Part shown: positions 4,586-36,931 of the stretch, piece after piece
Layout of the letters: every line of letters begins with the position of its first letter
Position numbering within the stretch: position 1 is the stretch's first letter
Assembly: GCA_017938245.1 (NCBI GenBank)
Contig: JAGBBX010000037.1
Location: 1-37,176 of the forward strand
From: Bacteroidaceae bacterium
GTDB lineage: Bacteria > Bacteroidota > Bacteroidia > Bacteroidales > Bacteroidaceae
Length of the DNA stretch: 37,176 nt
Direction: 5' to 3'
Program-made: the position numbers and the translations under genes
Notes under the pieces: generated by a model
What the model was told of the DNA's origin: nothing
Databases searched by the model: none
Seen by the model: only the letters and a program-made list of their open reading frames with translations

Positions 4586-4969
4586 CTACTCGGAATAGTA
4601 GTTTATGGTACGTGTATCGACAAGCAGACCTTCGGGGCCACCCTCGTGACTCGACATATTATGCAGGCATACGTCGAAACTGAAACTGCTCCAGATGAGT
4701 TTTCCGCGATTATCGTCGAAATACCTCTGCATATCGGCGCAAACGCCTTTAAACTGCGCTATGGCATAATCTTTCTCACAGGGTTTCTTGGATAGCTCTA
4801 CATTGACACTATCTACATTATTCATTATCTCACCCGGAATCTTCAATGGGTTCTCATTTACAACAATTTTGTATATTGCCAAAGGACCGTCAAGTTCGCA
4901 AGAGCTAAACGAAAAGCCAATAACAAGCAATGCCAACAAAATTGTAATTCTACTTATAATATTTTTCAT
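4586..4969 (-). CDS. Small lipoprotein of unknown function, 127 aa
   Basis: The N-terminus MKNIISRITILLALLVIG followed by FSFSSC (Cys at residue 24) is a lipoprotein signal. The remaining ~100 residues contain four further Cys (in KKPCEK, KGVCAD, FDVCLH and the lipidated one aside) and no domain I recognise. It lies downstream of the six-gene surface operon on the same strand but is separated from it by a strong terminator at 5020-5056, so it is probably not part of that operon. The 8-base inverted repeat TCAATTAT/ATAATTGA (4986-5003), just upstream of its start, could be an operator. Confidence 0.75.
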   Translation of the reverse strand: MKNIISRITILLALLVIGFSFSSCELDGPLAIYKIVVNENPLKIPGEIMNNVDSVNVELSKKPCEKDYAIAQFKGVCADMQRYFDDNRGKLIWSSFSFDVCLHNMSSHEGGPEGLLVDTRTINYYSE

Positions 4970-5019: not shown

Positions 5020-5056
5020 GTATCCTCACAGCATCCTAAAAAAGCTGTGAGGATAC
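5020..5056 (-). terminator. Terminator of the giant surface-protein operon
   Basis: GTATCCTCACAGC (5020-5032) and its perfect complement GCTGTGAGGATAC (5044-5056) form a 13-bp stem with an 11-base loop, 13 bases after the stop of the 1,360-aa gene. The sequence downstream on the minus strand is AT-rich but lacks a long T run, so it is a strong hairpin with a modest tail. Confidence 0.8.
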
Positions 5057-5069
5057 CACCTATTATGCG

Positions 5070-8000
5070 CTATCTTCTCTTCGGTAACTTACGTTTCTCG
5101 AATACTATTATATCATCATTATTCACCTCCTCGGTAGCAGCGTTCATAACAGCCTTAAGCTCGAGCTGACGACGCTTAATCATATCGGGAACAATGAGAC
5201 CTGCATCATAGTCGGCAGTTGTAAACGATACTGTATTACCATATATAAACTTATCCTCGTAATATACGAATGAACGATAGTAATAGGTTGTATTCGGTTT
5301 AAGCTGTAGTGCCTTAGAAAATAGTCCGGTTGACGTATTCAGTGTAACATCTACCTCACGTGTCACATTCTCGGTATCGTTATCGAGGTCAGACTTGCTT
5401 GGTGCATACTCGAATCCGACAAAAATCTTATCGGTTCCCTGGGTATTGATGATATTAAGGACATCGCTGTTCACCTTACCTTTAAGTGTTGTCCACTCGT
5501 CATTGAGCACCGCCTCGAATGTCTGAACATTGAACCCGTTCTCGGGTTTACTACCCACATTCAACTCTTTTACCTCACTACGGTATATCTTCTCGCTTCG
5601 AGCAGGCTGTACCGACAGACGGCAGTAGAACTTAGAATCCCAATTTAGGTCGGGGAGCTCCAATTCCCACTCGTGTTTGTCATTCTTTTTTCCCTCATCG
5701 ACACTCTTGAATATTGTCAAAGGGTCGTTCATCTTCTTATCCTTCGATATTTCAAAGAATACAGTTCGGTTCTTGTCGGCCTCGCTCTTTATTGAGTCGT
5801 TTATGAGTTTCCACAAAAGGTCGTTTACTCGTCCTCGCAATGTTCCGTTATTGCCCTCGACACTTGGTGGGTCAAGTGTTACCTTATATTCGAGTTTCTT
5901 TGTCTTGAATTGGTCTATTTCACTCTTATAAGCAGTCTTGACACCATCGACAGTCTTCTCTACCACATATCTGTAGTAATAGGTTGTAGATGGGTCGAGG
6001 TCTTCCAACAGGAATGCCATCATATAGATATTCTTTTTCTTGTCGAGTTCCCAGGCCGCCTTATTATCGACACGCTCGTCATCGGCAGTTCCCATATAAA
6101 TATCCTCTATTTTCTTGGAATATTCTATTGTAATCTCCGATTTTCCATTGCCATAGGGATAGGTCACATCGGCAGTGAGTGTAGCTTCATCGGCCTCGGG
6201 CACCTCTATGAAATTATCTATAGGTGCAGGAATCTTGAACGATATGGGCTTTGTCTCTATATGCTCCTCGCCATCATCGTAGATAACCTTTGCAAAGTAT
6301 GTGCGACCGGGTTCCCAACCTTTCTCGCTTAATATGCCAATGTCGTAATCGGCTTTTTCGTGGTCGCGGGTAATCTCCGATGCCGGAATCTTAAAGATTC
6401 TCACAATAATCATCTCATCGAGATAGTCGCTGCGGTCGTAGGGTTGGTTGCCATCCAGTTCAACTCCTCCACCATTCTCCCACGTGTCATCATCCTCGCT
6501 CACTACTACCTTATATTTAGACTTATCCGAGATACCTACAAATCCTCGGTCGGTCATAGCTCCCAAGAATACATTATCGTAGTTTACGCTTGCCTTAAAG
6601 TCGTAGAACACAGGTTTACTTTTGAACGTAACCTCTTTACCCAAGTATTTTTTACCTGTTGTATTGTCTATTAAGAAGGCACGATAAGTGTACTCTTTCT
6701 CGGGCTGCAACTTGCCATCGACATCCCAATAGAAGCCTCGGGTTCTAAAGTCGTTGAGCAGAGCAGTAAAGGTAAGATTACCCGGGTTCATTGTAATTCC
6801 GACAGTGAATTTATTGTCCATATGGTTATAACCCTCCTCGTCCAATACCGACTGGTGCACCGAGCCATTTAGCAAAGCACCTACCGATGTAATATCCTCG
6901 GGATTGAGTGTTTCAGGGGCATAGTAGTTTTGGAAGCCTGCATCCCAAGAGTAGCTATACATATATTTGTCGTTCACCGAGTCATAAATATATGCCACAG
7001 CCTTAAATATCTCTTTTGAGTAGTCGCTACGCTTAATAGTAGTCTCCATTGTTGTGTCCTTAGGTACTCCACCCTCGAAGAGTTTAATTCTATCGAACTC
7101 CTCATTTGTCTCTATGTCACGAAGTATGAAACCACCCTCGTTAACATAAGGACTTTGCAGCGCATCCTTTTCGAAAGTAGCCTTTAGCTTACAATTATCG
7201 TAGGTCTTGTCAACCTCACGTATTGTAACCTTATAGGGGATATAAAGCTCATCTAATTTACCTATGATACCATACCCTGTGAAAAATGTATTATAGGCAT
7301 AAGGATAAATAGAGAGTTGACGTCCTTTAAGTTCGGGCCTGTTAAGATTTACGCTGAAACTTACATCATTGGGACTTATCGCCTTGAATTCACCAAGATT
7401 CTCGGCTACATAGTCGGGTTTCTCGTCATATAAAGCGTAAGGCGAGTCATCAACGAATATAAGTCCTGCATCGTACGGGAATATGAGCCTTAACGTATTC
7501 TTTAGCGTTCCCGAATACTTGTAACCGGTAAATGTTCTTTTTGTTATCTCACTGGTATTTGGCGCTGCATCCAATCGGTAAAGTTCCCAGAATACCGTAG
7601 GCTCTATATCGAATTTCTCCAAGAAATCACTTAAAGTGAAAGAGAAGGCATCATTTGCGACATAAAATCCAATATCAACCAAGGCACCCCACTCTACCAC
7701 AAAATTGGTTCCTTCGTTTAGTCCGCTGAATATCTCGGAACGCTCTTTGAACCAATCGGGCTTGTCCGATACCTCTCGGTCTATCTGACCGAATTTATAT
7801 GTCAGCTGTGCCGAGACTTTTGGTCCCGTACCAAATTTAAACTGAAACTCGAGTCCCTCACCGGCAATACCTATTCCCACTTTTACGTGGAAAGCAAGGA
7901 AGAGTTCTCCTTTCAGACTAATCTCGCCCGAAGCATCTTTTTCAAATTGCAAGGGATTCTTTTTATTATCCTCTTTACTGTCGGTCCACCTTACATCCTT

Positions 8001-9152
8001 ATCATCGCCACTTACGATAAAGCCTACCGACCGTTTAATACTGATACCTGCCTCGCCACTTATCTTAGCCTCTAACAGATAGTCCCAAGTGATTCCAAAG
8101 TCGATATTTACACTCACACCCGGGATTACAACTACCGGAATGGGCACTGTGATAAAATCGAACTCTTTTTTATCATCTTCATCGGGTTTAAAATCGACGC
8201 TTGCCTCGAATGTCACCTTTCCCTCGGCCGAGAAATCGACACCGCCCTCTATACGTTTAAAATCGATATGCCTATCTAAGATAAGGGAAAAATATGCAAC
8301 GCTTGTAGCCTTTACATTAGCCGTAAAGGTTATTGGTCCCTCATTCTTTTCATCGTCCAATGAACTGACCTTTATTTTACCCTTATCACTAATGGTAAGT
8401 TTCTTCGCAATGGCAGTAGCCTCGGTAATTGATTCTACTTTATTCACATTATCGGTAAAGTCAGTGCTCATATTATCGTCACCATCACCTGCACGCGTAG
8501 GTAGTCTTTTTAGCACCAACCTCCTTTCGACAATCTCCTGTGGTGTCTCCTCGGAGTCGGGTGATACTCCCGACACGCCACTCACATATATCACATCGTA
8601 CACCTCTTCGAGTCCCAGTGTGCCGCATTTCATCTCGACCCATCCTTTTATGTAGTCGACATTTATCTTCTCGACACGTCCCATAAAGCCATTTGGCAGT
8701 TTGCCACGGAATATATTACAGATAACTTTCTGCCCGACTTTTGGCATTGGAACTCTTGTGAGACAGTCTATTCTGAAATAGACAGTGTGCACCGTATCGC
8801 TCTCGACGATAAACTCGAACAGACGCTCATCAATCTCGAACACACCTGCTGCCAACTGTGTTTCGGGAACCTCGAACATAAGGCTATCAATGTCGTTGAT
8901 GAATATGCCTAATGTATCGGGGTACAGCGCACCGTCGAAAAGCATCTGAACAGGTTTTCTATAACTGTTTCCAAGAGAGTCGGTATTCGAGAAAGTTATT
9001 TTCCAGTTACCGCCCTCGGGAAGCATAAAGTGCTTGCTATCCTTGCGCATCACTCCGAAAGATTGCTGATAATCGACCTGCGCAGCAACCGTTGGAGCAA
9101 GTACGAATGTGGCTATTACTGCCAACAATATGTAATTCAATAACCGTTTCAT
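5070..9152 (-). CDS. Large exported beta-rich protein with C-terminal Fn3-like domains, 1,360 aa
   Basis: A signal peptide (residues 1-24, PTVAAQ) is followed by a beta-rich N-terminal part. Residues about 160-210 include a KGWVEMKCGTLGLEEVYDVIYVSG segment, and residues about 300-520 form a glycine-rich alternating-strand region (for example KVGIGIAGEGLEFQFKFG). From about residue 650 onward there are several fibronectin-III-like or related sandwiches, shown by recurring strand motifs such as STTYYYRYVVE and NTTYYYRSFVYYEDKF. The protein ends with a basic tail (FEKRKLPKRR) and has no T9SS sorting domain. Its ATG overlaps the stop of the 168-aa gene by 4 bases (ATGA), so translation is coupled. 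It is probably a surface or periplasmic structural protein; no enzyme motif was found. Confidence 0.85.
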   Translation of the reverse strand: MKRLLNYILLAVIATFVLAPTVAAQVDYQQSFGVMRKDSKHFMLPEGGNWKITFSNTDSLGNSYRKPVQMLFDGALYPDTLGIFINDIDSLMFEVPETQLAAGVFEIDERLFEFIVESDTVHTVYFRIDCLTRVPMPKVGQKVICNIFRGKLPNGFMGRVEKINVDYIKGWVEMKCGTLGLEEVYDVIYVSGVSGVSPDSEETPQEIVERRLVLKRLPTRAGDGDDNMSTDFTDNVNKVESITEATAIAKKLTISDKGKIKVSSLDDEKNEGPITFTANVKATSVAYFSLILDRHIDFKRIEGGVDFSAEGKVTFEASVDFKPDEDDKKEFDFITVPIPVVVIPGVSVNIDFGITWDYLLEAKISGEAGISIKRSVGFIVSGDDKDVRWTDSKEDNKKNPLQFEKDASGEISLKGELFLAFHVKVGIGIAGEGLEFQFKFGTGPKVSAQLTYKFGQIDREVSDKPDWFKERSEIFSGLNEGTNFVVEWGALVDIGFYVANDAFSFTLSDFLEKFDIEPTVFWELYRLDAAPNTSEITKRTFTGYKYSGTLKNTLRLIFPYDAGLIFVDDSPYALYDEKPDYVAENLGEFKAISPNDVSFSVNLNRPELKGRQLSIYPYAYNTFFTGYGIIGKLDELYIPYKVTIREVDKTYDNCKLKATFEKDALQSPYVNEGGFILRDIETNEEFDRIKLFEGGVPKDTTMETTIKRSDYSKEIFKAVAYIYDSVNDKYMYSYSWDAGFQNYYAPETLNPEDITSVGALLNGSVHQSVLDEEGYNHMDNKFTVGITMNPGNLTFTALLNDFRTRGFYWDVDGKLQPEKEYTYRAFLIDNTTGKKYLGKEVTFKSKPVFYDFKASVNYDNVFLGAMTDRGFVGISDKSKYKVVVSEDDDTWENGGGVELDGNQPYDRSDYLDEMIIVRIFKIPASEITRDHEKADYDIGILSEKGWEPGRTYFAKVIYDDGEEHIETKPISFKIPAPIDNFIEVPEADEATLTADVTYPYGNGKSEITIEYSKKIEDIYMGTADDERVDNKAAWELDKKKNIYMMAFLLEDLDPSTTYYYRYVVEKTVDGVKTAYKSEIDQFKTKKLEYKVTLDPPSVEGNNGTLRGRVNDLLWKLINDSIKSEADKNRTVFFEISKDKKMNDPLTIFKSVDEGKKNDKHEWELELPDLNWDSKFYCRLSVQPARSEKIYRSEVKELNVGSKPENGFNVQTFEAVLNDEWTTLKGKVNSDVLNIINTQGTDKIFVGFEYAPSKSDLDNDTENVTREVDVTLNTSTGLFSKALQLKPNTTYYYRSFVYYEDKFIYGNTVSFTTADYDAGLIVPDMIKRRQLELKAVMNAATEEVNNDDIIVFEKRKLPKRR

Positions 9153-9655
9153 CGTACTATAGCTTTAATGTTAATATCTTTTACCTTGGCCACGTATGTG
9201 CCCGCCGACAGATGTGCAAGAGAAACAATGCCACCCTCGTTTATTGTGGCTGTGAGCATTATCTTGCCGGCAACATCGTAGACATACAGTTTCTCGCCTA
9301 TGAGTGAGCGGTGAAAAGTGAGCACGCCGTCGAAATAGCGCATAGGATTTTTCTCGCTAACATCGGCAACCTCATCTATTTGTGTATCTATGGCTTCGAT
9401 GAACTTCATAGACCTAACCTCGCCACGCTCGAAGATATACTCCTCGCGAGTACCAATGACCTCTATTAACTGCACAGTGCCACCCTCTCTTTCCTCGACA
9501 AAAGAGTAGACATATGATTCGGCATCAATCTCTATATCGAATACACGTCCGTCGGTAAGGGTTATGATAATCTTATCATATTGTTTCAGTTCTCCATCGG
9601 CAAACGCCGAGGTGCTAAGAATCAATCCGAATAAAAATAAAAGTAGCTTTCTCAT
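9149..9655 (-). CDS. Small exported protein with T9SS-type C-terminal sorting tail, 168 aa
   Basis: A signal peptide (MRKLLLFLFGLILSTSAFA) precedes a short beta-rich body (residues 25-110, with TDGRVFDIEIDAESYVYSF). The last ~45 residues read LYVYDVAGKIMLTATINEGG and LSAGTYVAKVKD, ending in basic residues. This is the layout of the type A C-terminal domain that directs proteins through the type IX secretion system. The usual Asn-Pro just before this domain is not evident, so sorting competence is uncertain. It is translationally coupled to the 1,360-aa protein downstream and lies 21 bases after the 231-aa lipoprotein gene. It could serve as a small surface-exposed subunit or adaptor. Confidence 0.85.
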   Translation of the reverse strand: MRKLLLFLFGLILSTSAFADGELKQYDKIIITLTDGRVFDIEIDAESYVYSFVEEREGGTVQLIEVIGTREEYIFERGEVRSMKFIEAIDTQIDEVADVSEKNPMRYFDGVLTFHRSLIGEKLYVYDVAGKIMLTATINEGGIVSLAHLSAGTYVAKVKDINIKAIVR

Positions 9656-9676
9656 ATTCTCTGTTTTTATCGGTTA

Positions 9677-10372
9677 TTACTGTTTACGACCTGCGGTCTT
9701 GTATGTTTTCAACTTAGAGAGCGTACCGTATGTGCCACCGTGCAATGGCAATTTCTCAAAGACAAAGCGTTCGTGCCCCGCCCTATGGTAGCATTGAATC
9801 TGTGCCGACTCACCCGGCCAAGCAGCTGCAATACGCATCTCGAGGTAAGGAATACCGTGTGCCTCACGCATAACAGCCTCACCGCGCACCTCGCCATCGA
9901 CAATGGCGACCAAACGTGTATCGCCCATAGAGTCGTTCATTAGTTCATTGTCTATCGTCAATGAGGCATACACCACTGTCTCGTAAAGATATTCGGCAGG
10001 ATTACACTCTTTCCACTCGAACACATTCACAAAGCAACTGTCGGTAAACAGAACCTTGTTATTCTCGGCGTCATAGCCCGTTGCCTCGACAACGACTTTA
10101 ACACGTCCCGGTTTCTCGGCATATACACGACGACCTATAAGTTCTACGGCATCTACATCGTCATACACCTCCCAATGATATGCTACATCTACAGTATCGG
10201 GGGTTATATAAGCATCCAATATAATGGAGTCACCAACAATAACATCAACCTCGTGGTACGATAGTGTCACCCCCTCGGGTGCAGGTTTTGCCTCCTCGAA
10301 GTTGAATAGCTCGCCACAAGATGTCAATGCTACCAGTGTCAGTGTTATATAAATATTTTTAATCAGTTTCAT
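9677..10372 (-). CDS. Lipoprotein with Ig-like domain and VxAxVDGExRG domain, 231 aa
   Basis: The signal ends in LTSCG with Cys at residue 19. Residues about 35-125 look like a bacterial Ig-like (Big) sandwich: a DVIVGDSIILDA strand, an AYHWEVYDD strand and an AEKPGRVKVVVEATG strand. Residues about 130-225 (YLYETVVYASLTID, then RLVAIVDGEVRGEA) match a domain that appears twice in the 1,123-aa protein of this window. It is a cell-envelope protein, probably anchored in the outer membrane. The gene is the fourth of the six-gene run, 52 bases after the 771-aa gene. Confidence 0.85.
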   Translation of the reverse strand: MKLIKNIYITLTLVALTSCGELFNFEEAKPAPEGVTLSYHEVDVIVGDSIILDAYITPDTVDVAYHWEVYDDVDAVELIGRRVYAEKPGRVKVVVEATGYDAENNKVLFTDSCFVNVFEWKECNPAEYLYETVVYASLTIDNELMNDSMGDTRLVAIVDGEVRGEAVMREAHGIPYLEMRIAAAWPGESAQIQCYHRAGHERFVFEKLPLHGGTYGTLSKLKTYKTAGRKQ

Positions 10373-10424
10373 ATTTTTCTTGCTTTACAATGGTTAAGAA
10401 ACTGTATTCTAAAGGGTTTAATCT

Positions 10425-12740: not shown

Positions 12741-12782
12741 ATATTGTTTTTTTTTTACTTATAGGTATATCACTTAAAATAA

Positions 12783-21700: not shown

Positions 21701-24700
21701 TCTTGTTACCCATTACCACAATACCACCTTCTATGTAGAATCCGAGCTCCTCGGCACCATCGCCTACCTCCATTGATATCTTCTCAAGGACAAAAGGCAT
21801 ACCTCCCCAGAAGCTACCCTCGTCCTCGCCCGGGTCGCCTGCCAAAGCCCAGCGTCCTGTGTGGAAGTCGGTATCACCCGACGGGTCTTTTAAAGACTTG
21901 CTCTCGGTTTTTTTATTGCTCTTCTCATCTTTCTTGCCTTTATTCTTATCTAATGCACCTTTCTCGAAGTTAGCTATACGCATATTCTCGAACGGGATAG
22001 CCGGCAGTTTAAAGTCGATACTCTCGGTACAGGTAATCTCGACATCACCATCGAGGCACAGCTCCACAAGAGTCTGTTTCTCTTTGGGCAGAGTGTCGCA
22101 ATAGATAATATTGAAATAGGTGCTGTCTTTGTAGAAGTTGACATTAGCCAGCATAAAGTCGAGACTTATCGAGTCCTCGACCTGCTGCATACCGAAGTTC
22201 ACAGCAAGGCCTTTCTTTGCACCGTGGTCAATAGAAGCTATATCGGCCTTATAACCAATCTTGGCCTTCTCCTTTGTACCTTTCTTATATAGTAGCGGAA
22301 CCTCTATTCGGCCATTGAATCCTGCATCGCCAAAATTGTTCTGCCTAATATTCATATATATCTTGTCGATGGTAATGCGCCAACCTCCCACTTTAGGTGT
22401 TCCACGATTGAGCAGACTATCGACCTCTACTCCCATAGAGAATCCCGACTCGTCGTATATGATATTATTGACAGCAATCTTAACACGCGAGTCGCCCTCG
22501 TCATCAAGCTCTACAAAGTGCGGCAACTTACAGCTTAGCTCCTCGAAATAGAAGCCCTGCCACTCGTTGTAGGCCTGTTCGTTTGTTCCGGGGTCGGCTG
22601 TTAGTCCCAAACCATCCTTGTCGTAGTCGTAGTTTGCGGGGAACTTAATTCCTGCGGGTGTTCGACGCTTCGAGCGGTCGAACACAATACCCACCGAGTC
22701 GCCCACAGCGCTGAAGGTGTAACCCGGAGCACTTGTAATCTGGAAAGGATCCATCTTTACCGTCGCGAACCAGTCCTCGGCATCGGCAATAAAGGCTGTC
22801 AGTGTAACCTCGGGATGCACGTTGGGGTCGATTGGGTCTTTTCCATTATCCTTTACTATCTTGGACGAAGGTATATTCATCGATATACTTGCGCACATCT
22901 CCTTGAACCCACCATTCTCCCAAGAGATGAAACAACCATCGGTTGCCTTGCTGTAATCCTGGTTGGTAGGCGCCTTAAATGTAAAGACAAAGTCGGACGA
23001 TGGGTCCTCTAATCTGAAGTCCTTTACAAGACCCAACGAACCGCTCTTTGGCATAAACTCCTCGGGCGAGGTCGATAGCTTACGTGCTGCAAAGATTAGA
23101 ATATCGCTGTATGCAAGCTTCTCGGGTTCGGGACTTTCGGGAAGAACGAACTCACCGATAAGGTCCATATTGGCATCAACGGGAGTAAACTCCATCTGAG
23201 CAAGCTGAATTGTTGCGGGACACTCGAGTTCCTTATCAAGAGGTACGGTAAGTCCCAACGGGAGTTTTACCACCGCAGCCGAGTCAATCTTGCCAATTGT
23301 CTGCATTGCATTACCTATAACATAGGTGTAGAATGCACCCACATTACTCTCCTTAAGGAATTGGTCTACTTTAGCCTCAGCTCCCTCTTTATCGGTCTTT
23401 TCGAGTTCCTTCACGAACTCCTCTTTAAATATGTCGAGCGGCACGTGTGCACTCTCCTCGGTAATTGAGCGCACATTATTCTTTACTACGCGCTGTAGCT
23501 CATTATCGATATATATACTATCGTACTCTACAGCCACACGAACGGGAATACCCATAATAGTTGTGTGTACGTGTCCCTTACCCTTGAAACAGTCGTTGCC
23601 AGCAGCCTTTTGGTCGGGGTCTTTTCCTGTAATCTTCTCGAAATCGGTAAGTGTGAGACGATATTCGCCAATCCACACATCGCGCAGTGCAGGCTGGAAG
23701 ATGGTATCGCACACCGATACCGAGTCGACCTTAAACTCCTCGGGTTTAAGCTCGTCCTCGATGAGTTTTTTCCACACAAGAGCCGTTACTTTGTTGTCGC
23801 CCTTTGGAATCTCAATATCGGTAGCGCTTGGTTTCTCTTTCTTTACATTGCCAAGAGAGTCGCACTCGAAGAGAGGAGCGCCATAGCTGAAGATATCGTA
23901 TCCACAGATATTGTTCAGACGGGCAGCCGATAATTTTAGTTTCTCCTCGGGTTTTAAAGTTATGACACTGTCGGGTTTATCGATGAAGTACTGATAATTG
24001 TATGTGAGACGGAGATTTACTTTCTGTTCTTCATTGGTTACGTTAAGCAGTGTAACGTCGAACAGGTCGCCCGGCTTCTCGAAATACTTATCGGGTTCGG
24101 GTTGGAAATCGGCATCGGCCTTAGGAACAATTGTTACAACAACCTCTTCGAATTTTATGTTTTTAGCGATGAAATCGGACTTTCCTCCACCGAGCATTGC
24201 ACGTGTCTTGCGGTCTTCCATCTCTTTGGGAAGTGACTTTAGCGAATCGACGCTGTAGGCAATCACCTCGACCTGATTGAAAGCCTCAAGGTTAAGAATC
24301 TCGTTGATATCGGGAATAGGCTTCTCGACAAAGCCATCTAGACGCGCCTCGAAACACTTTATGGTATCGGGGCTGCCACAGAAAGCGTTAAGGTCGGACG
24401 CTGTTATCTGCTTAATCTCGCCAGGAGCAAGGGTAACAAACTTCTCGAGACGTTTATCGTCGTATACCGAACCGTAATACGAACCAAACTCATCGAACAG
24501 ATACATTATGTTGGGAATAACCTTATACTCGTGCAGAGTGTTGTTCTTCAGTTCAATATCGAAAAGTGTTCCGGGACTGTTGAAATAGAGTTCGGCATTG
24601 GCAGGCAGAGGCTGCATTTTGGGCTTCACTGTTACACTGACATCGTCGAGACGCACAGTAGATGAAACCTGAAAACTAAGTTCACCTGTACCCTGATAGA

Positions 24701-27700
24701 AATCTATGAGTGGCGCATCTGTACCTAAAGCATCGAGGTAGGTGGGGTTTAATGCAACAAACTCGACTTTAGTAAATGACTCGGGGTCTAATACAATATC
24801 CTTATCGGCGTTAAAGATATTGTAATCGAGACGTTCGGGGTGACCACTCTCTTGTTCAACCATCTTATAAAACTTCTTCCCGGCAAAGAATTTGTTGACG
24901 TACTCATTATTCATCTGTTTCTTTTCTCCCGCCCCAATGGTTATAATAGGAACATCGGGGTCGTTATATGAGCCTGAAAGATATGTCACATCCTCGTCAC
25001 CGTTGAAATTGAACTTAATAAGAGGAATAATTTCTAGTTCTTTATCGCTCGTATTCGAGAGCCACACCTCGAAGAGTTGCTCGGGTTTGGTAAAGTAGGC
25101 CCTTGTATTATAGGGCATAGGATTCATCTTAGGCTTTATCTCTATGTCAAGGTCGTATAGGACATAGTCGGGATTTGCCCAGAAATCGTGCTGCATAGTA
25201 GCGACAGTAATACGCTCCGAGCGGTTTTCACTACCTTTTGGGATAGCTCTTACACTGTCGGCATTGACAAGCGTAAGCTTCATATGGTTGGCATCCTCGG
25301 TGGTGATAATCTCGTCGAAGTCGGTAAAATCGAACTCATTTTCATCGGTAGAATGAATATGACGCACAGCAGTTTCATCACCACAGAACTGCTTTAGGAA
25401 ATTACGGTCGAGAACTTTCTTCTCCTTGGCACGAAGCACAAATTCGGGTTTCTCGTTAAAGAATTTTGCCGCAGAATAGGAGTAGGTCTCTTCGTCTATC
25501 TCGCGATTCTCGTATGTGATACCGGGAATTAGTTTAAGGTCTTTATCGGTAAGGTTTGTAAGGACTATATTAAACATACGACCCGGGTCTTTTATATACA
25601 CATCACCATTTACGGGATAGTCCTTGACCGGCTCTATTGTAATATCGACATCACCCAACTTTACACTTGAAGATACCTGATGCGACTGCTCATACTGCAT
25701 AAGCAGCGCCGATGATGCCGGCTCCTCTTTAAGGTTGAGCATACTGAGCCTGTCATAATCCAAAAGAACCAGATTGGTATATATCTGTTCCTCGAATTCT
25801 ATTGTAGAGAAGTCAGTGATGACACCATTCTCGCCATCGACTCTGCACTTAACCTCCATAAAACCACCGAAGAAACGGTCGAACTCCTCGTCGGTTAATG
25901 TTTTTGTTTCCCCCGAAGCAAAGGTTAAATAGTTATCGGCCATACGCTTGACATCGCCGAAATAGCTGCCGTTATATATATCCTTCTCATCGCTGATACC
26001 GGTGCTCTTTCCTATCTGAAGTGCAGGGAACACACGTATTGCATTGGGAGCAAGGCTCTTTATCTTTAGCTTAAAGATGCGCGAAGGCTTGGTGAAATAG
26101 TGCTTGGCATCGGCCGGCAGAATGGGCATTTTGGGTTCAAACGATATGTTGAACATCTCGCCATTGAGCACATTGGGATTGGTATTAAACTCGGCCCTAC
26201 CCTTACCAATGATTTTCTCGCGCAATACAGGCTTACCACCGGTGTAACTACATACACGCAAGAAGGCAGTATCGACCTTCTCGCTGAAGTGTTCGCTCGT
26301 TGGCTTACCCATAATAAATCCGGTCTTTGCCTTGAACGCTATGACATCGGTATCGAAGTCGTACCCGCCTGCAAGTTCGTTTATCTGCTCCTCGGAGAGA
26401 ACAATTGTCTCACCAGCCGGAATATCTATGAACTTATTTGTATGCTGACGTGCCGGCGCAGCTGTCACGCCCCAATTTCCTTTGAAATACTGCAGCAACA
26501 TACACACGGGAATATCCTCGCCCGAGGTGTTTTCGAGAGTCACGTTAAATAGTTCGCCCGGAGTCTCGAAATAGCTATACATTGCCGATGGCAGCTCGGT
26601 ATATTTAGGAGCAATCGTTACGTTTATAGGATACTCTCTTGTAGAGTTGTCGACAACAATATCTACATCCTCGCCGTTGCCAAGAGCATCGTCCTCCATA
26701 AGAAGCACAATCATCTCGCTCTTACCCTCATTACCGATGATGGTATAGTTGGGATTTGAAACATCTGTCACAAGAGGACGTGCTGTTACCTGTGCCACAT
26801 ATTTCACATTGGCGTAACGTTTGAGACGAGCAACAACATTATAGGGCACAATGCAATAGGGAGTCATAAGACCCAACTGTTCAAATGCTATGTTACCATT
26901 ATGGAGTGTCGCATCGCTCGGGTCCTGATTCATTGCAAGCTGATAGATTCTGAAATCGTACAGGAACTGTCGGGTAATGCTCAGTCTTGTGTTATTGAAT
27001 GTAGGCTCGCTCCACGAGAAACGTGGGTTACTTGTGGGGAAATAGGCTGTATTATAACCATCCTGATTTAAGAGCCCTGCCTCGGCCGTAACATCGCCAT
27101 TGATATATTTTATATTATTGAAACTCGGCGCCGAGGCATTGTAACATATATCGAAGAAACAGACTGCCTCGCCAAGCACGTCGCCTGCATCGTTGTACTC
27201 GGTATAATTTGTCTTTGCAGTAATCTTCAGTCCATAGTGTCCTTCGGGCAACAGGCCGAAAATACCACCACCGCCACCGCCTTGAAAAATATCATAGAGC
27301 TGACCACCGCCAAACATCTCGGTACCTGCGTCGTACTGGCGGAACATATTGTAAAGGTCGGTCTGTGTCAACACACGTGTATGACCCGGGCTAAGCGGTA
27401 TATACACCGGCATTGTACGCTGGGCGCTCGTTGCAAGATAGGAACCGTTGTCGGGGAGAATATCGAAACCACCCTCGATTGGTCCCTCGATGCGCGCTTC
27501 GAGTCGCACCGGAATAAGTTCTGTTGCCGACGTATTTGTGAGCGAGACATTGAAGTAACGTCCCGGGTCGGTCATATATACTGCACCCTGCGCAGGCAAT
27601 GGGTTCTGACGTGGTACAACCGATACAGTAACCTGTGCAAACAAATCACTTGCACATAGCAATATACCTATTAGAGCTACCAATATAAATAGTCTATGCT

Positions 27701-27707
27701 TTATCAT
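12783..27707 (-). CDS. Giant modular exported protein (4,974 aa) with LRRs, EF-hand loop and L7/L12-like C-terminus
   Basis: One uninterrupted 14.9-kb frame. A type I signal peptide (residues 1-24, ASDLFAQ) leads seven tandem modules at about residues 26-1310. A beta-rich middle follows at about 1600-2700, with glycine-rich strands such as GLGCTAGLTIWSKIDW. Next come a sandwich-like part near 2700-2800, a helical coiled stretch near 2890-2975, an EF-hand loop at 3366-3377 (DKNDDGRLHIDE) and leucine-rich repeats to about 3990. Three ~310-residue LRR-containing modules start near 4005, 4320 and 4620, and the last ~65 residues resemble the ribosomal L7/L12 C-terminal domain. No sorting tail or transmembrane helix is evident. 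It lies between the candidate outer-membrane barrel (26-base gap) and the Fn3 protein (42-base gap). Likely a cell-surface or periplasm-spanning adhesive or structural protein; the function is unknown. Confidence 0.92.
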   Translation of the reverse strand: MIKHRLFILVALIGILLCASDLFAQVTVSVVPRQNPLPAQGAVYMTDPGRYFNVSLTNTSATELIPVRLEARIEGPIEGGFDILPDNGSYLATSAQRTMPVYIPLSPGHTRVLTQTDLYNMFRQYDAGTEMFGGGQLYDIFQGGGGGGIFGLLPEGHYGLKITAKTNYTEYNDAGDVLGEAVCFFDICYNASAPSFNNIKYINGDVTAEAGLLNQDGYNTAYFPTSNPRFSWSEPTFNNTRLSITRQFLYDFRIYQLAMNQDPSDATLHNGNIAFEQLGLMTPYCIVPYNVVARLKRYANVKYVAQVTARPLVTDVSNPNYTIIGNEGKSEMIVLLMEDDALGNGEDVDIVVDNSTREYPINVTIAPKYTELPSAMYSYFETPGELFNVTLENTSGEDIPVCMLLQYFKGNWGVTAAPARQHTNKFIDIPAGETIVLSEEQINELAGGYDFDTDVIAFKAKTGFIMGKPTSEHFSEKVDTAFLRVCSYTGGKPVLREKIIGKGRAEFNTNPNVLNGEMFNISFEPKMPILPADAKHYFTKPSRIFKLKIKSLAPNAIRVFPALQIGKSTGISDEKDIYNGSYFGDVKRMADNYLTFASGETKTLTDEEFDRFFGGFMEVKCRVDGENGVITDFSTIEFEEQIYTNLVLLDYDRLSMLNLKEEPASSALLMQYEQSHQVSSSVKLGDVDITIEPVKDYPVNGDVYIKDPGRMFNIVLTNLTDKDLKLIPGITYENREIDEETYSYSAAKFFNEKPEFVLRAKEKKVLDRNFLKQFCGDETAVRHIHSTDENEFDFTDFDEIITTEDANHMKLTLVNADSVRAIPKGSENRSERITVATMQHDFWANPDYVLYDLDIEIKPKMNPMPYNTRAYFTKPEQLFEVWLSNTSDKELEIIPLIKFNFNGDEDVTYLSGSYNDPDVPIITIGAGEKKQMNNEYVNKFFAGKKFYKMVEQESGHPERLDYNIFNADKDIVLDPESFTKVEFVALNPTYLDALGTDAPLIDFYQGTGELSFQVSSTVRLDDVSVTVKPKMQPLPANAELYFNSPGTLFDIELKNNTLHEYKVIPNIMYLFDEFGSYYGSVYDDKRLEKFVTLAPGEIKQITASDLNAFCGSPDTIKCFEARLDGFVEKPIPDINEILNLEAFNQVEVIAYSVDSLKSLPKEMEDRKTRAMLGGGKSDFIAKNIKFEEVVVTIVPKADADFQPEPDKYFEKPGDLFDVTLLNVTNEEQKVNLRLTYNYQYFIDKPDSVITLKPEEKLKLSAARLNNICGYDIFSYGAPLFECDSLGNVKKEKPSATDIEIPKGDNKVTALVWKKLIEDELKPEEFKVDSVSVCDTIFQPALRDVWIGEYRLTLTDFEKITGKDPDQKAAGNDCFKGKGHVHTTIMGIPVRVAVEYDSIYIDNELQRVVKNNVRSITEESAHVPLDIFKEEFVKELEKTDKEGAEAKVDQFLKESNVGAFYTYVIGNAMQTIGKIDSAAVVKLPLGLTVPLDKELECPATIQLAQMEFTPVDANMDLIGEFVLPESPEPEKLAYSDILIFAARKLSTSPEEFMPKSGSLGLVKDFRLEDPSSDFVFTFKAPTNQDYSKATDGCFISWENGGFKEMCASISMNIPSSKIVKDNGKDPIDPNVHPEVTLTAFIADAEDWFATVKMDPFQITSAPGYTFSAVGDSVGIVFDRSKRRTPAGIKFPANYDYDKDGLGLTADPGTNEQAYNEWQGFYFEELSCKLPHFVELDDEGDSRVKIAVNNIIYDESGFSMGVEVDSLLNRGTPKVGGWRITIDKIYMNIRQNNFGDAGFNGRIEVPLLYKKGTKEKAKIGYKADIASIDHGAKKGLAVNFGMQQVEDSISLDFMLANVNFYKDSTYFNIIYCDTLPKEKQTLVELCLDGDVEITCTESIDFKLPAIPFENMRIANFEKGALDKNKGKKDEKSNKKTESKSLKDPSGDTDFHTGRWALAGDPGEDEGSFWGGMPFVLEKISMEVGDGAEELGFYIEGGIVVMGNKKFGLGCTAGLTIWSKIDWEEMALSYDRVEFNTMHVEGQFAGMVSVVGDLTVADEEEKSGFDAELEIKVKGLFEMDVAGGYYKIQKGDEEFKLDDADEKKDKYYHAGFFVADAKLPPIPMGPVSLKGISGGFFINYSVPMSSLDGTDDFVTTLKENLKPKYKSYGGMFGVDLVVGEETLIKGNATMLLMIDIQKDGVRCPGVLFQGNVAALCAPDSDDGLINSKITILYEDTTTPDLTDEEMQTMSKADIAANLEKKKEEHKLFRLTITVDADMAGVYKQFTGEELQIKNPMVGLEEFDQKNADSENQGEKNNTESSAGAAESKGYVKAGASASISLELEVRHYPSQDKTFWHLYVGEPDESKRCRITFIDFEFGRKSPVGLWAKLYANAYLCLGNELPGDGQLPPLPAKVTEALGMKGADGKVDNSLKGKIAAAREQTMKGGPAGGINGGIMLGAAIGAEIGCNAVFCYAEVEGMLGFDLILKQYKEGIKCTDGRRAGGKNGFYATGQFYAMLKGELGLMINLWIFEGKVPLVDMTLGALLQGGFPNPTWVYGRLRAKGSVLGGLIKFSSTIEMKAGKICVPEMGNPLDDIKVFGDVNPGDEDIEIGWADKSLVSCYGKSTFTTNMKIGKVLTLVDEGETMERAGMDGDGNNVLRKYVFYLDKQFQLCKYDESDNTNDNRTCTTTWVTHINPTYDQENYEIQLGALQPRTLYRIKLRGTCKEIVDGDEVNPIYKDTITGKKVHRPFEDKRYIYFRTDNLSDDINKEVANYLPNLTPFTQTLDEVTQPSFMEMHERPDYWLNPDHEFVASIKVYDSKTNTYVFPDARDGLRKGQITKYDNLQVVEVVEQGIDESNNNFKFATVTLQNPVPREYFKVSDKVRFEIRRINRAQLDSYMDMVEESYKNILALTKEDMAEYESQLDAMDAAIAEGDKKAGDKNTNQAIRDLYNYYKEMSDLYGENEAEQRMKEYKEELKANTSAFAEVVYTQDYKYNGQASFLDYVTKSDNWSYSGGDANDTNTSTVYCQMVDIVTKEEAAKISGGYDPNAVYGFRTTENRSNNPYFALNYWNSTAAVWRAPKYDLCSRPFDECNFSGSTSLSYNLTYPYLRRGIFEGSKYSDTQYEVGLNPKFAVDWFKYDDMTTYTRNASGKKKIFKIVWYAIYNDAYLAQNLETWLKQYYSSDLKYGIEKNKRKDIKNLVDRFADNGSMIQVYSNYVSDGGYSAGSRSWVQIPRWQIALMYAADNTGKYGLNANNSRAATSAYRYFTGQWSTFKADNYLNRIKELKVRIRFSDGYNIAEASGKGRVEPTKFGVRPSTSAKRTAIISCNINGKGISGITDNNISINREEYVTIGDPVMLEYLLTNYDKNDDGRLHIDEMAAITTLKLDFSKIKGEVTRPNQPAPGIASLDALKLMPNLKKLELLNNMNGDMSNSAYNKFHTLNKTLRLDGNPKLQELTLEKWYVDSLDLRYNTELRKLNIDMRSSYNRLPPKVSTVRSSEGVSYLDVSKCTKLWDLRVIDCFIEKLDLSNIATLEVLDLRMNCLSHLDISASYKLSENFVKAGFQTYKTAKGRVISTYIRYLDVKTFGLSNSSADYMNSSSVNYKARFTKEAGRDKGVGTLDSNLYSYMYDEAQKAKKSVFDWASAQTTLRVPGLKIKSFKNLDAWMPKLTLIDVSDNELTELDLTGFAELKQVYANNNRLADIKVRGDNNKIYWLEVSNNSLSSLPIDAMPKLSHLKCANNSIDIIYPNVNTELNYLDCSNNYLTELVLDKMTNITTLKCSYNKLTNGNFKIPANANLHTFEAAGALGDIDEIDLSSSTNIRIVNVANNPSLKRLKLAATTSRLEELIANDCALTKIYNGGNNFSLFNYDSQYKPKSTMAWLKEVNVANNPNMSLTVVYNYANYQRLRAIDVTGCNILAVYLHGTNINYLTRLCAGVPQRSSGYKVEIKVFSNNWYKRWDEWKDYPENRHTTYMRLYTTSYPYKYSGSYDPSCPTRVETITEDDKKLRAAMGETFYNHMKEKLRPDSLGYRALHVENVKDLTELQCANMQIVDLDGILKYMPKAKVVNATGNEMKTVILKNLDGVDKLDLSNNAALDSLSFNYQYGKLDELNLSHSYVNEYGLVEAINVTRNKKLIVDGDIGPTVLEVAKYKYRCNTKEMSLVSKGRNYVLYNLVADKLTVGGKSLKFFMGSTGSYTAYSRIEHLYLAESAEPIELIFTSADMALLWLNKWINDNPNRKFTMRIETGDASINNSVNSLLSMVNNVTKNGISRLDDNVRQMANSYVLKYAWEEKVPKGELFRDVLDDYDLHEKLSNDDVMMKNAMGSKLYLLLKRQYAPTREYLHVEDVKKVTTLDCEDCGVVNLTNVLKYMPSLTTVKASGNNLRSVTLGENGRLTSVDLSGSKYKLDTLKFKNTVLSLDLSKNTINSSVLDAAIKNTVNNLTINGAVGINMGVNTSTTCVKTFTTDNNTLRLYKAKFQGLNFTGKYLYFYRDMSEISVSNFRLTAKTQYELNFSTADNALKFIAEWSENNIQTRGNAPKFNMTVGSNSNTRTLLNSYNTQAKAGNGFLTENKKKAVEAIITAVNRGYVTKGSGYDRMITYLNSIGLADIQTAEDLELKNALGSMMYNHYKNKYASTKKYLHVSDVKSITTLDAERTDLVSITNAIKYMPKLTTIYLRYNDIKDVDVSGHKIVINTLDISDNTALRTFNARSSSIRNIDLSYSYVNSTILKNALVASTSNVTVNGNGGVQLVSLDNVSANNLSMLSTNRILQLNSCTLNKLTFGGQELIFDGDLSKCKIKDFEINRPSGSINVEFHTADAALMWIEYWSKKAPTTAFTIELIGSNASNSSRIKAKLVSINNTLRRGGKINETTRTQLYDVIKFAVSSCGLKQGSMYGNYVKVIGQSGNKTVTIQSISSKIGVIKALQEIFGLSLSEVKSKYVDVLPSVVGKFSSSEAAEIKKILEDAGAVVTVQ
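12786..12980 (-). other. L7/L12 C-terminal-like domain of the giant protein
   Basis: Residues about 4910-4974 read GVIKALQEIFGLSLSEVKSK, then a short VLP segment, then SSEAAEIKKILEDAGAVVTV. They align by eye with the E. coli L7/L12 C-terminal pattern VAVIKAVRxxTGLGLKEAKD, then P, then DAEALKKALEEAGAEVEV. Shared positions include VIKA, GL-x-L-x-E-x-K, the KK-x-LE block, AGA and the final V-x-V. In ribosomes this domain binds elongation factors; at the end of an exported protein that role cannot apply. Confidence 0.75.
12981..15700 (-). repeat. Three tandem ~310-residue LRR-containing modules in the giant protein
   Basis: Three units begin near residues 4005, 4320 and 4620. Each opens with a helical AMGxxxYxxxKxxxx segment (LRAAMGETFYNHMKEK, MKNAMGSKLYLLLKRQ, LKNALGSMMYNHYKNK). 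Each continues with xLHVxxVKxxTTLxC, a KYMPKLTTxxxxxNxxxxV LRR core and SxxDxALxWIxxW (for example TADMALLWLNKW, TADNALKFIAEW, TADAALMWIEYW). The spacing is regular at 300-315 residues, so they are products of tandem duplication. Confidence 0.8.
17577..17612 (-). other. EF-hand calcium-binding loop in the giant protein
   Basis: Residues 3366-3377, DKNDDGRLHIDE, are a canonical 12-residue EF-hand loop: Asp at 1, Asn at 3, Asp at 5, Gly at 6, a hydrophobic residue at 8 and Glu at 12. It sits right at the entrance to the leucine-rich repeats. A single loop could also be a dockerin-like or calcium-stabilised linker. Confidence 0.75.
23770..27632 (-). repeat. Seven tandem ~165-residue beta modules at the N-terminus of the giant protein
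   Basis: Units start near residues 26, 355, 516, 685, 851, 1020 and 1187. Each opens with a strand of the form VxVTIxPKxxPLPxxAxxYF, then a xPGxLFxVxLxNxT strand and a variable receptor-like strand. Copies 2-7 repeat every 161-169 residues. The first copy is followed by an extra ~160 residues before copy 2. A glycine stretch (QGGGGGGIFGLL) lies in the first copy. Confidence 0.85.
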
Positions 27708-27733
27708 AACAGTGTAGTTTTATCATATTGTAA

Positions 27734-29578
27734 TTACATTGCCGATGCCTCGACACTGTTCATTCTTTGTCGGTTCTCGGTGTTCTTCTTCTGCTGATGC
27801 TCGAGCAGTCGGCGTTCACGCACTGCGGCACGTGAGAAGTCGGAGTAATACTCGTACTTTCCGTAACGAGAGTGTTGCTCCTTGGGACGACGCTTTATGC
27901 TGAATGCCGTAAACGAGTAACTATAGCTGAACGAGCAAGAGAAATCGTATCCTCCTTCACGTTGGTAGGACGAAGCCACAAGGTTTGTGTTCGAAAAGCG
28001 GCTGTAGTTGAGGTTCAGGCTGAAGCCGTGTACCTGTGCCAATGTATAAGCCGCCGAGATATTACCACCCAAAGTGACGCTCTTGCTGCCATCCATTCTG
28101 TTATCGACAAGAGATGCCGACGCATTAAGCGAGAGGTTACGCTCCTTCAACAGTGCTTTAGAAGCGCTAAGAGTATAAACTCCTGTGGTATATTTCGAGT
28201 CGTAACCATCGGAACGCTGATAGCTGTAGTTAAGACCAAAGTTGGTTTCAATGGGTACAACGCTAAGCGAGTAGTTGGCACCCAAAGCAGTAGTTGCTAC
28301 GTCACCTGTGCCGGCAGTCGTACGGTTATAATCCTCGTTTAATGAGTAGTTTGCCGACAACGAGACATAATGACCAAGATTCTCGCTACTTGTATTATAA
28401 GACAATGTAGCAGTGTAGCTGTTCATATTACGGTTGATGCGTGTAGTATCGTTCACCTGTGCCGTACCATCGTACTGGCACTGACGATAGCCGTTATAAT
28501 TGGCCGATACCGAGAACTTACTTCCAATGGGCATATTAAGGCTTGCGGCATAAGATAGTCCGCGTGTGGTATAGAGCTGCTCGCCCGAGATATTATCCTC
28601 TTGCAGCGAGAAGTTGCCACCCACATTCAGTTTGCCCAAACGCAAGTTGACAGCCGTTCCTATATTATGATAGTTATTATTCATATAGGATACACCCATA
28701 CTCATATAATCGGGTTGTATAAGTTTGTAGAACAACGACACAGATATTTTCCTGAAATTTGCTGCCAGCGTAACGTCACCAGCCCATCGCATAAGCGAAC
28801 TGTAACGTACACCGAATATATCGTCGTACTTATCGACCTTGTCGAGCGGAACCTCGGGGGCGGTAATATCGGTCGAGAATATCGAGGTTGCTATATTAGC
28901 GGTAATAGAAAGAGGCTTTAGAATCTGCCAGCGTCCTTTTACACCTACAACAATATTCTCTTGTGCATTAACCTCGTCATACCAGATTTCATCAATTGAC
29001 GAACGATGGTCTTGCGAACGGAACAGATAGAGGTCGAAATAGTTGCGACTGTTACCATAACCCAATTTCAAACCCCAACCCGAACGCTTGTAGACGGGAC
29101 GTCCCGAAGGCATCTCGCCCGGAACAAAGTTAACAGCATCGCGCAAGATTCCGTAGAAAAGTCCGAAACGGAATCCTGTTTTCGCACTCTTATATTCGAG
29201 ACCTATACCGTTAAATGGCAGATTATAGACATAAGAAGAGAAAGGCATAGAGCGACGACCAAGATGCAGAGTCCAGCCCTTATATGTAGGACTGAAATTA
29301 AACGCAAACTGCGGATGCGAGAATGAGTAGTTATTACTGCTATAATAAAACGCAAAAGGCATATTATAACCGTAAAGATTCACATTCAGATTGGCATACA
29401 TAGAGTAATTGAGAGGCGAAGCACTGCTGCCGCCCGACGAATAATAAAGTGTACTCTGTGTTCCCAATGCACCGGTAACGATGAGCGGGTCTTTCTTTCG
29501 GGGGTCTTCAATGGCATATATCCCCGAAACCGAGAACAGCATCATCAGGAGCATTAATTTACTGACACTTGTTTTCAT
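27734..29578 (-). CDS. Candidate outer-membrane beta-barrel protein, 614 aa
   Basis: A signal peptide (ending SGIYAIED) is followed by about 530 residues of alternating hydrophobic/polar strands rich in Tyr, Ser, Asn and aromatic girdles (for example NMPFAFYYSSNNYSFS and GFRFGLFYGIL), as in outer-membrane barrels. The last barrel-like strand, FSFSYSYSFTAF, ends near residue 557. It is followed by a ~57-residue strongly basic, helical tail (IKRRPKEQHSRYGKYE and on), which is unusual because barrels normally end at the last strand. There is no TonB-dependent plug domain. It is the first gene of the six-gene run, 26 bases before the giant gene, so it may anchor or export that protein. The exact family is not recognised. 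Confidence 0.8.
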   Translation of the reverse strand: MKTSVSKLMLLMMLFSVSGIYAIEDPRKKDPLIVTGALGTQSTLYYSSGGSSASPLNYSMYANLNVNLYGYNMPFAFYYSSNNYSFSHPQFAFNFSPTYKGWTLHLGRRSMPFSSYVYNLPFNGIGLEYKSAKTGFRFGLFYGILRDAVNFVPGEMPSGRPVYKRSGWGLKLGYGNSRNYFDLYLFRSQDHRSSIDEIWYDEVNAQENIVVGVKGRWQILKPLSITANIATSIFSTDITAPEVPLDKVDKYDDIFGVRYSSLMRWAGDVTLAANFRKISVSLFYKLIQPDYMSMGVSYMNNNYHNIGTAVNLRLGKLNVGGNFSLQEDNISGEQLYTTRGLSYAASLNMPIGSKFSVSANYNGYRQCQYDGTAQVNDTTRINRNMNSYTATLSYNTSSENLGHYVSLSANYSLNEDYNRTTAGTGDVATTALGANYSLSVVPIETNFGLNYSYQRSDGYDSKYTTGVYTLSASKALLKERNLSLNASASLVDNRMDGSKSVTLGGNISAAYTLAQVHGFSLNLNYSRFSNTNLVASSYQREGGYDFSCSFSYSYSFTAFSIKRRPKEQHSRYGKYEYYSDFSRAAVRERRLLEHQQKKNTENRQRMNSVEASAM

Positions 29579-29760: not shown

Positions 29761-29786
29761 CTCCCCTGCCCCTGAAGACAGGGGAG
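29761..29786 (-). terminator. Terminator of the 1,123-aa surface protein gene
   Basis: CTCCCCTG (29761-29768) pairs with CAGGGGAG (29779-29786). An alternative inner stem CCCCTG/CAGGGG closes on an AAGA tetraloop. On the minus strand it is followed by CCACTCTTTTTCTTG, giving a T-rich tail. It lies 16 bases after the stop of the 1,123-aa gene and should separate that gene from the six-gene run downstream. Confidence 0.8.
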
Positions 29787-33380: not shown

Positions 33381-33388
33381 TACATTTG
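33381..33388 (+). promoter_or_regulatory. -7 box of the membrane regulator gene
   Basis: TACATTTG is a perfect TAnnTTTG box on the plus strand. No good -33 element is visible at the expected distance. A TTG codon at 33386 lies inside this box, so the transcript must begin after it and translation must start at the GTG at 33413. Confidence 0.6.
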
Positions 33389-33412
33389 CATAAAAGAGTT
33401 AATCATCGGATT

Positions 33413-36848: not shown

Positions 36849-36858
36849 TTACAAGGTG

Positions 36859-36931
36859 TCGGAATGAGGCGACTCGAACGCCCGACCCCTACGTCCCGAA
36901 CGTAGTGCGCTACCAACTGCGCTACATTCCG
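36859..36931 (-). tRNA. tRNA-Pro (anticodon CGG)
   Basis: On the minus strand the 73-base cloverleaf starts CGGAATG (acceptor), has the D arm GCGC-AGTTGGTA-GCGC, the anticodon arm CTACG-TTCGGGA-CGTAG with anticodon CGG, a variable loop, the T arm GGGCG-TTCGAGT-CGCCT, and the closing acceptor CATTCCG with discriminator A. CCA is not encoded. It reads CCG proline codons. Confidence 0.95.

Follow-up and report, generated by a model that had tools for sequence, protein, structure and literature searches.

Gene content and conservation of the locus

We analyzed a 37,176-nt stretch of DNA from a Bacteroidaceae bacterium (GCA_017938245.1, contig JAGBBX010000037.1), referred to below in its full length as the window, which encodes a giant protein of 4,974 aa (12783-27707). 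The giant lies between a 614-aa outer-membrane barrel (27734-29578), identified by an AlphaFold2 model and its structural matches, and a 771-aa Fn3 protein (10425-12740), recognized by PDB matches. Behind these follow a 231-aa probable lipoprotein (9677-10372), a 168-aa protein carrying a tail of the type IX secretion system (T9SS), type A (9149-9655; TIGR04183 with 27.4 bits against a cut-off of 23), and a secreted beta-rich protein of 1,360 aa, in which an Fn3-like match stays below threshold (5070-9152). All six open reading frames (ORFs) are collinear on the minus strand, with successive gaps of 26, 42, 52, 21 and -4 bases in the ORF calls. As judged from sequence comparison, the locus is a family-specific elaboration of a module of barrel, TANFOR-type giant and Fn3 protein that is found phylum-wide. 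TANFOR polymorphic toxins of Bacteroidetes are a class in print since 2020 (Jana, Salomon, Bosis, PMC7073777).

A preliminary description of this DNA had presented the six genes as one locus. The genes, their small gaps and the 4-base overlap are indeed present, and its labels for the barrel, the Fn3 protein and the sorting tail are borne out by the predicted structure, the PDB matches and the profile score above cut-off, respectively. Of its 'Ig-like lipoprotein' at 9677-10372, the lipobox can be recognized by eye, while 'Ig-like' found no profile support. The unit is larger than six genes, however. Upstream lies the first gene of the wider unit, encoding a secreted protein of 1,123 aa that contains Big_2-like repeats and whose T9SS tail is weak (29803-33174, minus strand; Big_2 and TIGR04183 matches both below cut-off), and downstream its last gene, encoding a 127-aa probable lipoprotein (4586-4969, minus strand) that takes the same place in nine same-genus loci. 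A divergent regulator with a TTG start (33386-35743, plus strand) also belongs to it, in which domain scans revealed TPR, HisKA, response regulator and AraC-type HTH in this order. Thus, the wider unit comprises at least eight genes on one strand and the divergent regulator. As the regulator contains HisKA and receiver domains and has no HATPase_c match in Pfam, it may not be an active kinase. PDB searches with the products of 5070-9152 and 29803-33174 returned nothing informative.

The full set recurs in nine further genomes of the same genus, chosen because they held the giant (searched with its C-terminus), on a single strand and in the order upstream gene, barrel, giant, Fn3 gene, lipoprotein, tailed protein, large protein, small lipoprotein. 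Here, the giants measure 4,667-4,970 aa, the longest being an intact relative of our giant, and the counterparts of the 1,360-aa protein 1,319-1,374 aa. The counterpart of 29803-33174 is in place in all nine loci, truncated in three of them where the extracted stretch begins, and relatives of the regulator occupy the same divergent spot in the five loci whose stretch reached there. The 4-base overlap is retained in the window and in all nine relatives measured and is therefore not a product of chance; conserved neighbourhoods and overlap together led us to reject chance collinearity for the genes as a whole. Window and genome G454 compared, the eight genes are under purifying selection (dN/dS 0.03-0.16). 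We also looked for relatives with scattered genes, which would speak against a single unit. Among same-genus loci free of contig-end cuts, nine of ten keep order and strand, and the core is intact phylum-wide (see below). The variant is G573, with upstream gene, barrel, a 2,469-aa giant, Fn3 gene, lipoprotein and then an 801-aa protein; three more same-genus loci are cut by contig ends (G721, G788 and G795).

Outside the genus but within the family, the upstream gene, the core and the lipoprotein recur and the last genes vary: the tailed gene and the 1,360-aa gene have relatives in G521, and G400, G419, G584 and G604 carry instead a protein of 801-842 aa. The distribution of the barrel is patchy (24 of 251 sampled genomes of the family, 56 of 393 of the order). 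Judging from these neighbourhoods, the family added lipoproteins, among them the 231-aa accessory protein, T9SS-tailed proteins and the regulator to a three-gene core.

To follow this core, we surveyed the order and then named genomes. In the order, 50 of 68 barrel places were followed and 18 left out, with giants of up to 800 aa not counted; a giant adjoins the barrel in 39 of these 50 neighbourhoods and an Fn3 relative is present in 33, several of the misses being contig ends. With the barrel alignment, we scanned named genomes and obtained 299 stretches that encode a relative. We examined the best 80 of these 299, so that the counts are tilted toward close relatives of the query; they include Tannerella forsythia, Sphingobacterium, Chryseolinea, Flavobacterium, Dyadobacter and Pedobacter. 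The triad is present, e.g., in Chryseolinea serpens (L164) and Flavobacterium terrae (L195). A giant follows directly after the barrel on the same strand in 79 of the 80, the remaining one being a contig edge. The Fn3 gene, scored only where a complete giant longer than 1,300 aa is followed by more than 1,500 bases of sequence, was found within three genes after the giant in all 65 loci with room. No more than 100 bases separate the neighbours in 77 of 79 cases for the first gap and in 58 of 59 for the second. The giants of these 80 stretches have a median length of 2,012 aa and reach 3,078 aa at most, cut ones included, which makes the window giant extreme in length. These neighbourhoods show that barrel, giant and Fn3 gene travel as a unit across Bacteroidota. 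The Runella plasmid pSP2_2 (L269) has a barrel together with a hypothetical giant of 2,151 aa and a ~4,200-aa protein with a T9SS tail, ~11 kb away from CRISPR genes.

The preliminary description had the unit end in a 13-bp hairpin. This hairpin (5020-5056, minus strand), located 3' of the 1,360-aa gene and confirmed by inverted-repeat and folding tests, is strong: the repeat is perfect (arms 5020-5032 and 5044-5056) and folds with -31.4 kcal/mol, whereas shuffled sequences average -13.9 (z -5.9). It has no U-run behind it, though, so it is not a classical terminator and need not stop transcription, and the next gene is close behind, its counterparts in nine relatives starting -29 to 69 bases after that of the 1,360-aa gene. 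The upstream gene and the barrel are separated by a terminator-like stem of 11 pairs that is followed by a T-rich tail (29761-29786, minus strand; -26.6 kcal/mol, z -4.7). Promoter scans gave scores within about 1.3 standard deviations of the shuffle mean. Elsewhere in the window, 2290-3099 encodes a Glycoside hydrolase 108 muramidase of phage endolysin type with a peptidoglycan-binding domain, and a tRNA-Pro (cgg) is found at 36858-36931, close to the contig end.

The barrel and the giant

AlphaFold2 predicted the 614-aa protein confidently (pLDDT 87.7) as a barrel of about 25 strands, which start at residue 32, with no plug domain visible. The prediction backs the outer-membrane platform proposed in the preliminary description. 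Among the matches listed by Foldseek, MtrB (6r2q_B) is the closest PDB structure, and the ushers FimD and PapC appear among ranks 3-12. Sequence was less telling: no specific Pfam or NCBIfam family matched the barrel (NCBIfam at E 0.1 for the window barrel), none of 76 barrels matched PorP/SprF at E 0.001, and PDB sequence-profile searches with the barrel and with the giant's centre gave nothing informative. The barrel ORF is also intact in genome G169.

These matches invite comparison with known systems. The predicted barrel resembles MtrB of the Mtr electron conduit in its width and similar size; unlike MtrCAB, the locus has different partner proteins and no CXXCH motif in any of its nine proteins (the regulator taken as a shortened ORF). 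It shares a wide barrel with the chaperone-usher systems of FimD and PapC, for which the secreted Ig-like modules of the locus could be a possible client; yet no usher or chaperone family matched the window proteins. As in T9SS with SprB-type adhesins, a giant surface protein adjoins a barrel and the window genome has a T9SS, but the window giant lacks SprB repeats and the barrel the PorP/SprF match mentioned above. Two-partner secretion differs in that no POTRA family matched the window barrel in Pfam and NCBIfam scans, and the barrel strands set in already at residue 32.

The giant itself falls into four regions, all on the minus strand, before a short tail. Its N-terminal region (aa 25-340; 26688-27635) is homologous to the TANFOR region of relatives, as judged by profile and self-comparison. 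It is followed by six further tandem copies, each of about 165 aa, of the first N-terminal domain (aa about 355-1310; 23778-26645) and by a conserved beta-rich central body (aa 1455-2611; 19875-23345), which profiles find in common with TANFOR giants of other groups. The model of this centre is of low confidence (pLDDT 55.5); it displays long antiparallel strands, and its weak structural matches, LptD and ApoB among them, have TM scores of at most 0.14 by query length. The fourth region (aa 2612-4905; 12993-19874) is divergent and recombining, with leucine-rich repeats (LRRs) and repeats of about 300 aa.

The relation to TANFOR rests on several comparisons. The window giant has no match to TIGR02542 (own genome searched with E up to 10, and the giant's N-terminal 700 aa) and is thus a homologue rather than a model-defined TANFOR member. 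A profile grown from its N-terminus recovers all 23 TIGR02542 loci, ten of which come from the order sample used to grow it and thirteen do not. The central body is homologous in L121, L164 and ten other named giants, and the N-termini of L121 and L164 match TIGR02542 at E 7e-16 and 1.5e-9, below the 67-bit cut-off. This body is common to 15 of the 73 giants compared, which are those that built the profile; the others have different bodies. TIGR02542 matches 24 of 39 barrel-linked giants of the order (E 0.001), and the Tannerella giant contains four TANFOR copies, paralleling the repeated first domain of ours.

The reverse test, from a TANFOR gene to a nearby barrel, gave a mixed result. In the order, TANFOR occurs in 13 of 198 genomes, all 13 with a barrel, which is directly upstream in each of the ten loci fetched. 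In the phylum sample, it occurs at 13 places in 10 of 345 genomes, with a barrel upstream at three and two genes downstream at one; two further places are near a short barrel-like ORF and seven have no barrel in the stretch fetched. The barrel-less TANFOR proteins L256-L258 measure 1,013-1,644 aa and are preceded by a gene whose end looks T9SS-like by eye and followed by smaller ORFs, an arrangement that matches the one described for TANFOR toxins (PMC7073777). At L259, two TANFOR-type genes lie close together, the second ending HNH-like (by eye) and followed by a 293-aa barrel-like ORF.

The preliminary description had considered the locus undescribed and unlike any known system. This has to be revised, as the core is a gene set around TANFOR-type giants, a published class (PMC7073777). 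What we find described nowhere in the literature as searched (wider searches covering titles and abstract openings) is the barrel partner; the word 'barrel' is absent from the main text of that paper. Compared with the TANFOR toxins as presented there, the window giant likewise has a signal peptide, the homologous N-terminal region and the shared central body, and its locus has Fn3 and T9SS-tailed neighbours in a genome with T9SS. It differs in lacking a TIGR02542 match and a recognized toxin or immunity gene and in having a barrel partner and a tail with LRRs and an L12-like domain.

The C-terminal half of the giant

The giant ends in a domain resembling the C-terminal domain of ribosomal L7/L12 (aa 4909-4974; 12786-12983, minus strand), which matches PF00542 with E 2.9e-10 and 40.7 bits against a gathering cut-off of 25.9. 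Of the 14 giants examined in the genus, 13 have this tail at their very C-terminus; it is missing from G573. One copy is present in the window and in G454 and three to five in nine others, 34 in total. No such tail was found in five further complete giants from other genera of the family (G400, G419, G521, G584 and G604) or in the tail of G741. We rejected an assembly fusion as its origin, given its recurrence in 13 of 14 giants and in up to five copies. The idea that the domain is unique in the genome was likewise discarded, since three cytosolic-looking ORFs on contig C33 have it. These ORFs (L225) are non-ribosomal with zinc-ribbon-like starts, and two have Sel1/TPR-like ends (by eye).

The giant tails share 28-48% identity with a bL12 from the same taxonomic family. 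They differ from it in their setting, at the end of a signal-peptide-bearing giant and in one to five tandem copies. For bL12, we take K65, I69, K70, R73, L80 and K84 to be the factor-binding positions. Among the 34 copies, position 65 is K/R in 30, position 69 I/V in 32, position 70 K/R in 22, position 73 K/R in 23, position 80 L in 30 and position 84 K in 13. The presumed factor-binding positions are thus partly kept.

Upstream of the tail, the C-terminal half bears signs of recombination. Compared with G454, the window giant has a synonymous divergence of about 1 across aa 1-2400 but mostly of 0.1-0.35 across aa 2550-4650, and the next gene is back at 0.9; the C-terminal half has thus been exchanged. 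In eight of nine other close pairs (e.g., G545/G777, G503/G777 and G587/G614), the stretch of about aa 2400-3200 shows a lower number of synonymous differences than the first 1,200 residues; G545/G503 is flat. Between distant lineages, this half diverges most, with amino-acid identity of 0.33-0.70 beyond about aa 2800 versus about 0.67-0.90 in the centre. By these divergence patterns, the C-terminal half behaves like an exposed, exchangeable tip.

What such a tip can be is illustrated by the Emticicia plasmid pEMTOL03 (L267), which encodes in a row an SprB-repeat protein, a barrel, a 2,719-aa giant and a SUKH-1 immunity protein. This giant has a TANFOR-type N-terminus (E 3e-62) and clearly matches a WHH nuclease, besides a HINT match below threshold; hence the barrel also adjoins a toxin-bearing giant. 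In the window giant, Pfam and NCBIfam revealed no toxin family above cut-off, though unfamiliar toxins would escape these scans, and its only hint is a sub-threshold PT-VENN pre-toxin match (13.7 bits versus 20.3; E 0.07). The same scans of its neighbours identified no immunity gene, and 96 partly overlapping C-terminal stretches of barrel-linked giants, the window's included, contained no toxin family at E 0.01.

Export and function of the module

Since T9SS export has been proposed for TANFOR proteins (Jana et al., PMC7073777), we asked how closely the module is tied to this system. The window genome has SprA (2,729 bits), GldM and six T9SS tails above cut-off. We searched for SprA in 40 genomes with and 40 without a barrel and for GldM in 20. 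SprA is present in 38 of the 40 barrel genomes (37 above cut-off; G521 by a contig-edge piece) and in 33 of the 40 others; SprA-less G400 has GldM, which is likewise missing from the seven non-barrel genomes that have no SprA match. In G398 (3 contigs, 99% complete), a search for these two T9SS genes alone matched neither. Its module (L271) contains a 557-aa barrel whose ORF is intact. Next come a 498-aa gene, a giant of 1,522 aa that has the central body (E 6e-156), an Fn3 gene (E 7e-114), a gene of 1,054 aa and a second giant with a TANFOR-type N-terminus, which runs off the end of the stretch. A partial ORF upstream, followed by a 160-aa ORF, has an end resembling the barrel-less TANFOR protein L258 (by eye). 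T9SS thus usually accompanies the module, and G398 suggests that it may not be required.

We consider the locus to encode a dedicated outer-membrane assembly that displays a giant surface protein with an exchangeable tip, a reading whose chances we judge as about even with a slight lean in its favour, with contact between barrel and giant and the export route being its conjectural parts. All proteins would enter the periplasm via Sec. The barrel, resembling the sheath barrel MtrB and the pilus ushers, would hold or pass the giant's N-terminal TANFOR-type chain and, with the help of the Fn3 protein, display the giant on the surface. The conserved centre would serve as stalk or scaffold and the C-terminal half as the exchangeable tip facing outside, made up here of LRRs and L7/L12-like domains. 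This tip probably binds other cells or surfaces here; in the Emticicia plasmid copy, it would be a nuclease with its immunity gene. A bolder version, which we regard as possible but doubtful, takes barrel and TANFOR-type N-terminus as a T9SS-independent route of outer-membrane export and assembly that shows giant adhesins and toxins with exchangeable tips. This genus would then have recruited an L7/L12 tip, which might bind elongation factor present at the surface of other cells.

The alternative that the giant is exported by T9SS, with the barrel merely a surface anchor or adaptor, draws on SprA, GldM and six above-cut-off tails in the same genome, on the tailed protein inside the operon and on the occurrence of SprA or GldM in 39 of 40 barrel versus 33 of 40 non-barrel genomes (Fisher one-sided p 0.03). 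We nevertheless hold it to be unlikely, as no T9SS tail is seen on the giant itself, whose end is an L12-like domain, as the link is not significant within the family (9 of 10 versus 9 of 15, p 0.12), and as G398, with no SprA or GldM match, has barrel, giant and Fn3 gene intact. This genome lowered our estimate for T9SS export, raised that for a separate route and slightly raised that for the display assembly.

We regard it as very improbable that the giant is an antibacterial polymorphic toxin whose L7/L12-like domains act as a warhead binding a rival's translation factors. The TANFOR class does bear C-terminal toxins (PMC7073777), a barrel-linked giant with WHH nuclease and SUKH immunity exists, and both the position of the tail at the extreme C-terminus in nearly all same-genus giants and the PT-VENN match, albeit below cut-off, would fit. 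Against this stand the negative toxin scans of the window giant and of the 96 C-terminal stretches and the lack of a recognized immunity gene, the neighbouring lipoproteins being conserved and not polymorphic. Moreover, of the positions presumed to bind factors, K84 is kept in 13 of the 34 copies and K70 as K/R in 22. A periplasm-spanning bridge, in which the beta-rich giant joins the inner side to the barrel, e.g., for moving lipids or glycans, seems to us if anything a shade more remote: the long antiparallel strands predicted for the central body and the LptD and ApoB matches hint at it, yet these matches come from a low-confidence model with the very low TM scores given above, and signal peptide, LRRs and recombining C-terminus fit exposure to the outside better.

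Taken together, the locus most likely serves to display on the cell surface a giant whose recognition tip can be exchanged. The L7/L12-like tail would then be a ribosomal domain put to other use, in tandem copies and on a protein with a signal peptide. TANFOR giants are a class of toxins whose exit from the cell has so far merely been hypothesized, and the barrel provides a concrete candidate for how giants of this type may cross or anchor in the outer membrane. It also unites in one system adhesin-like giants and a giant that bears a toxin.

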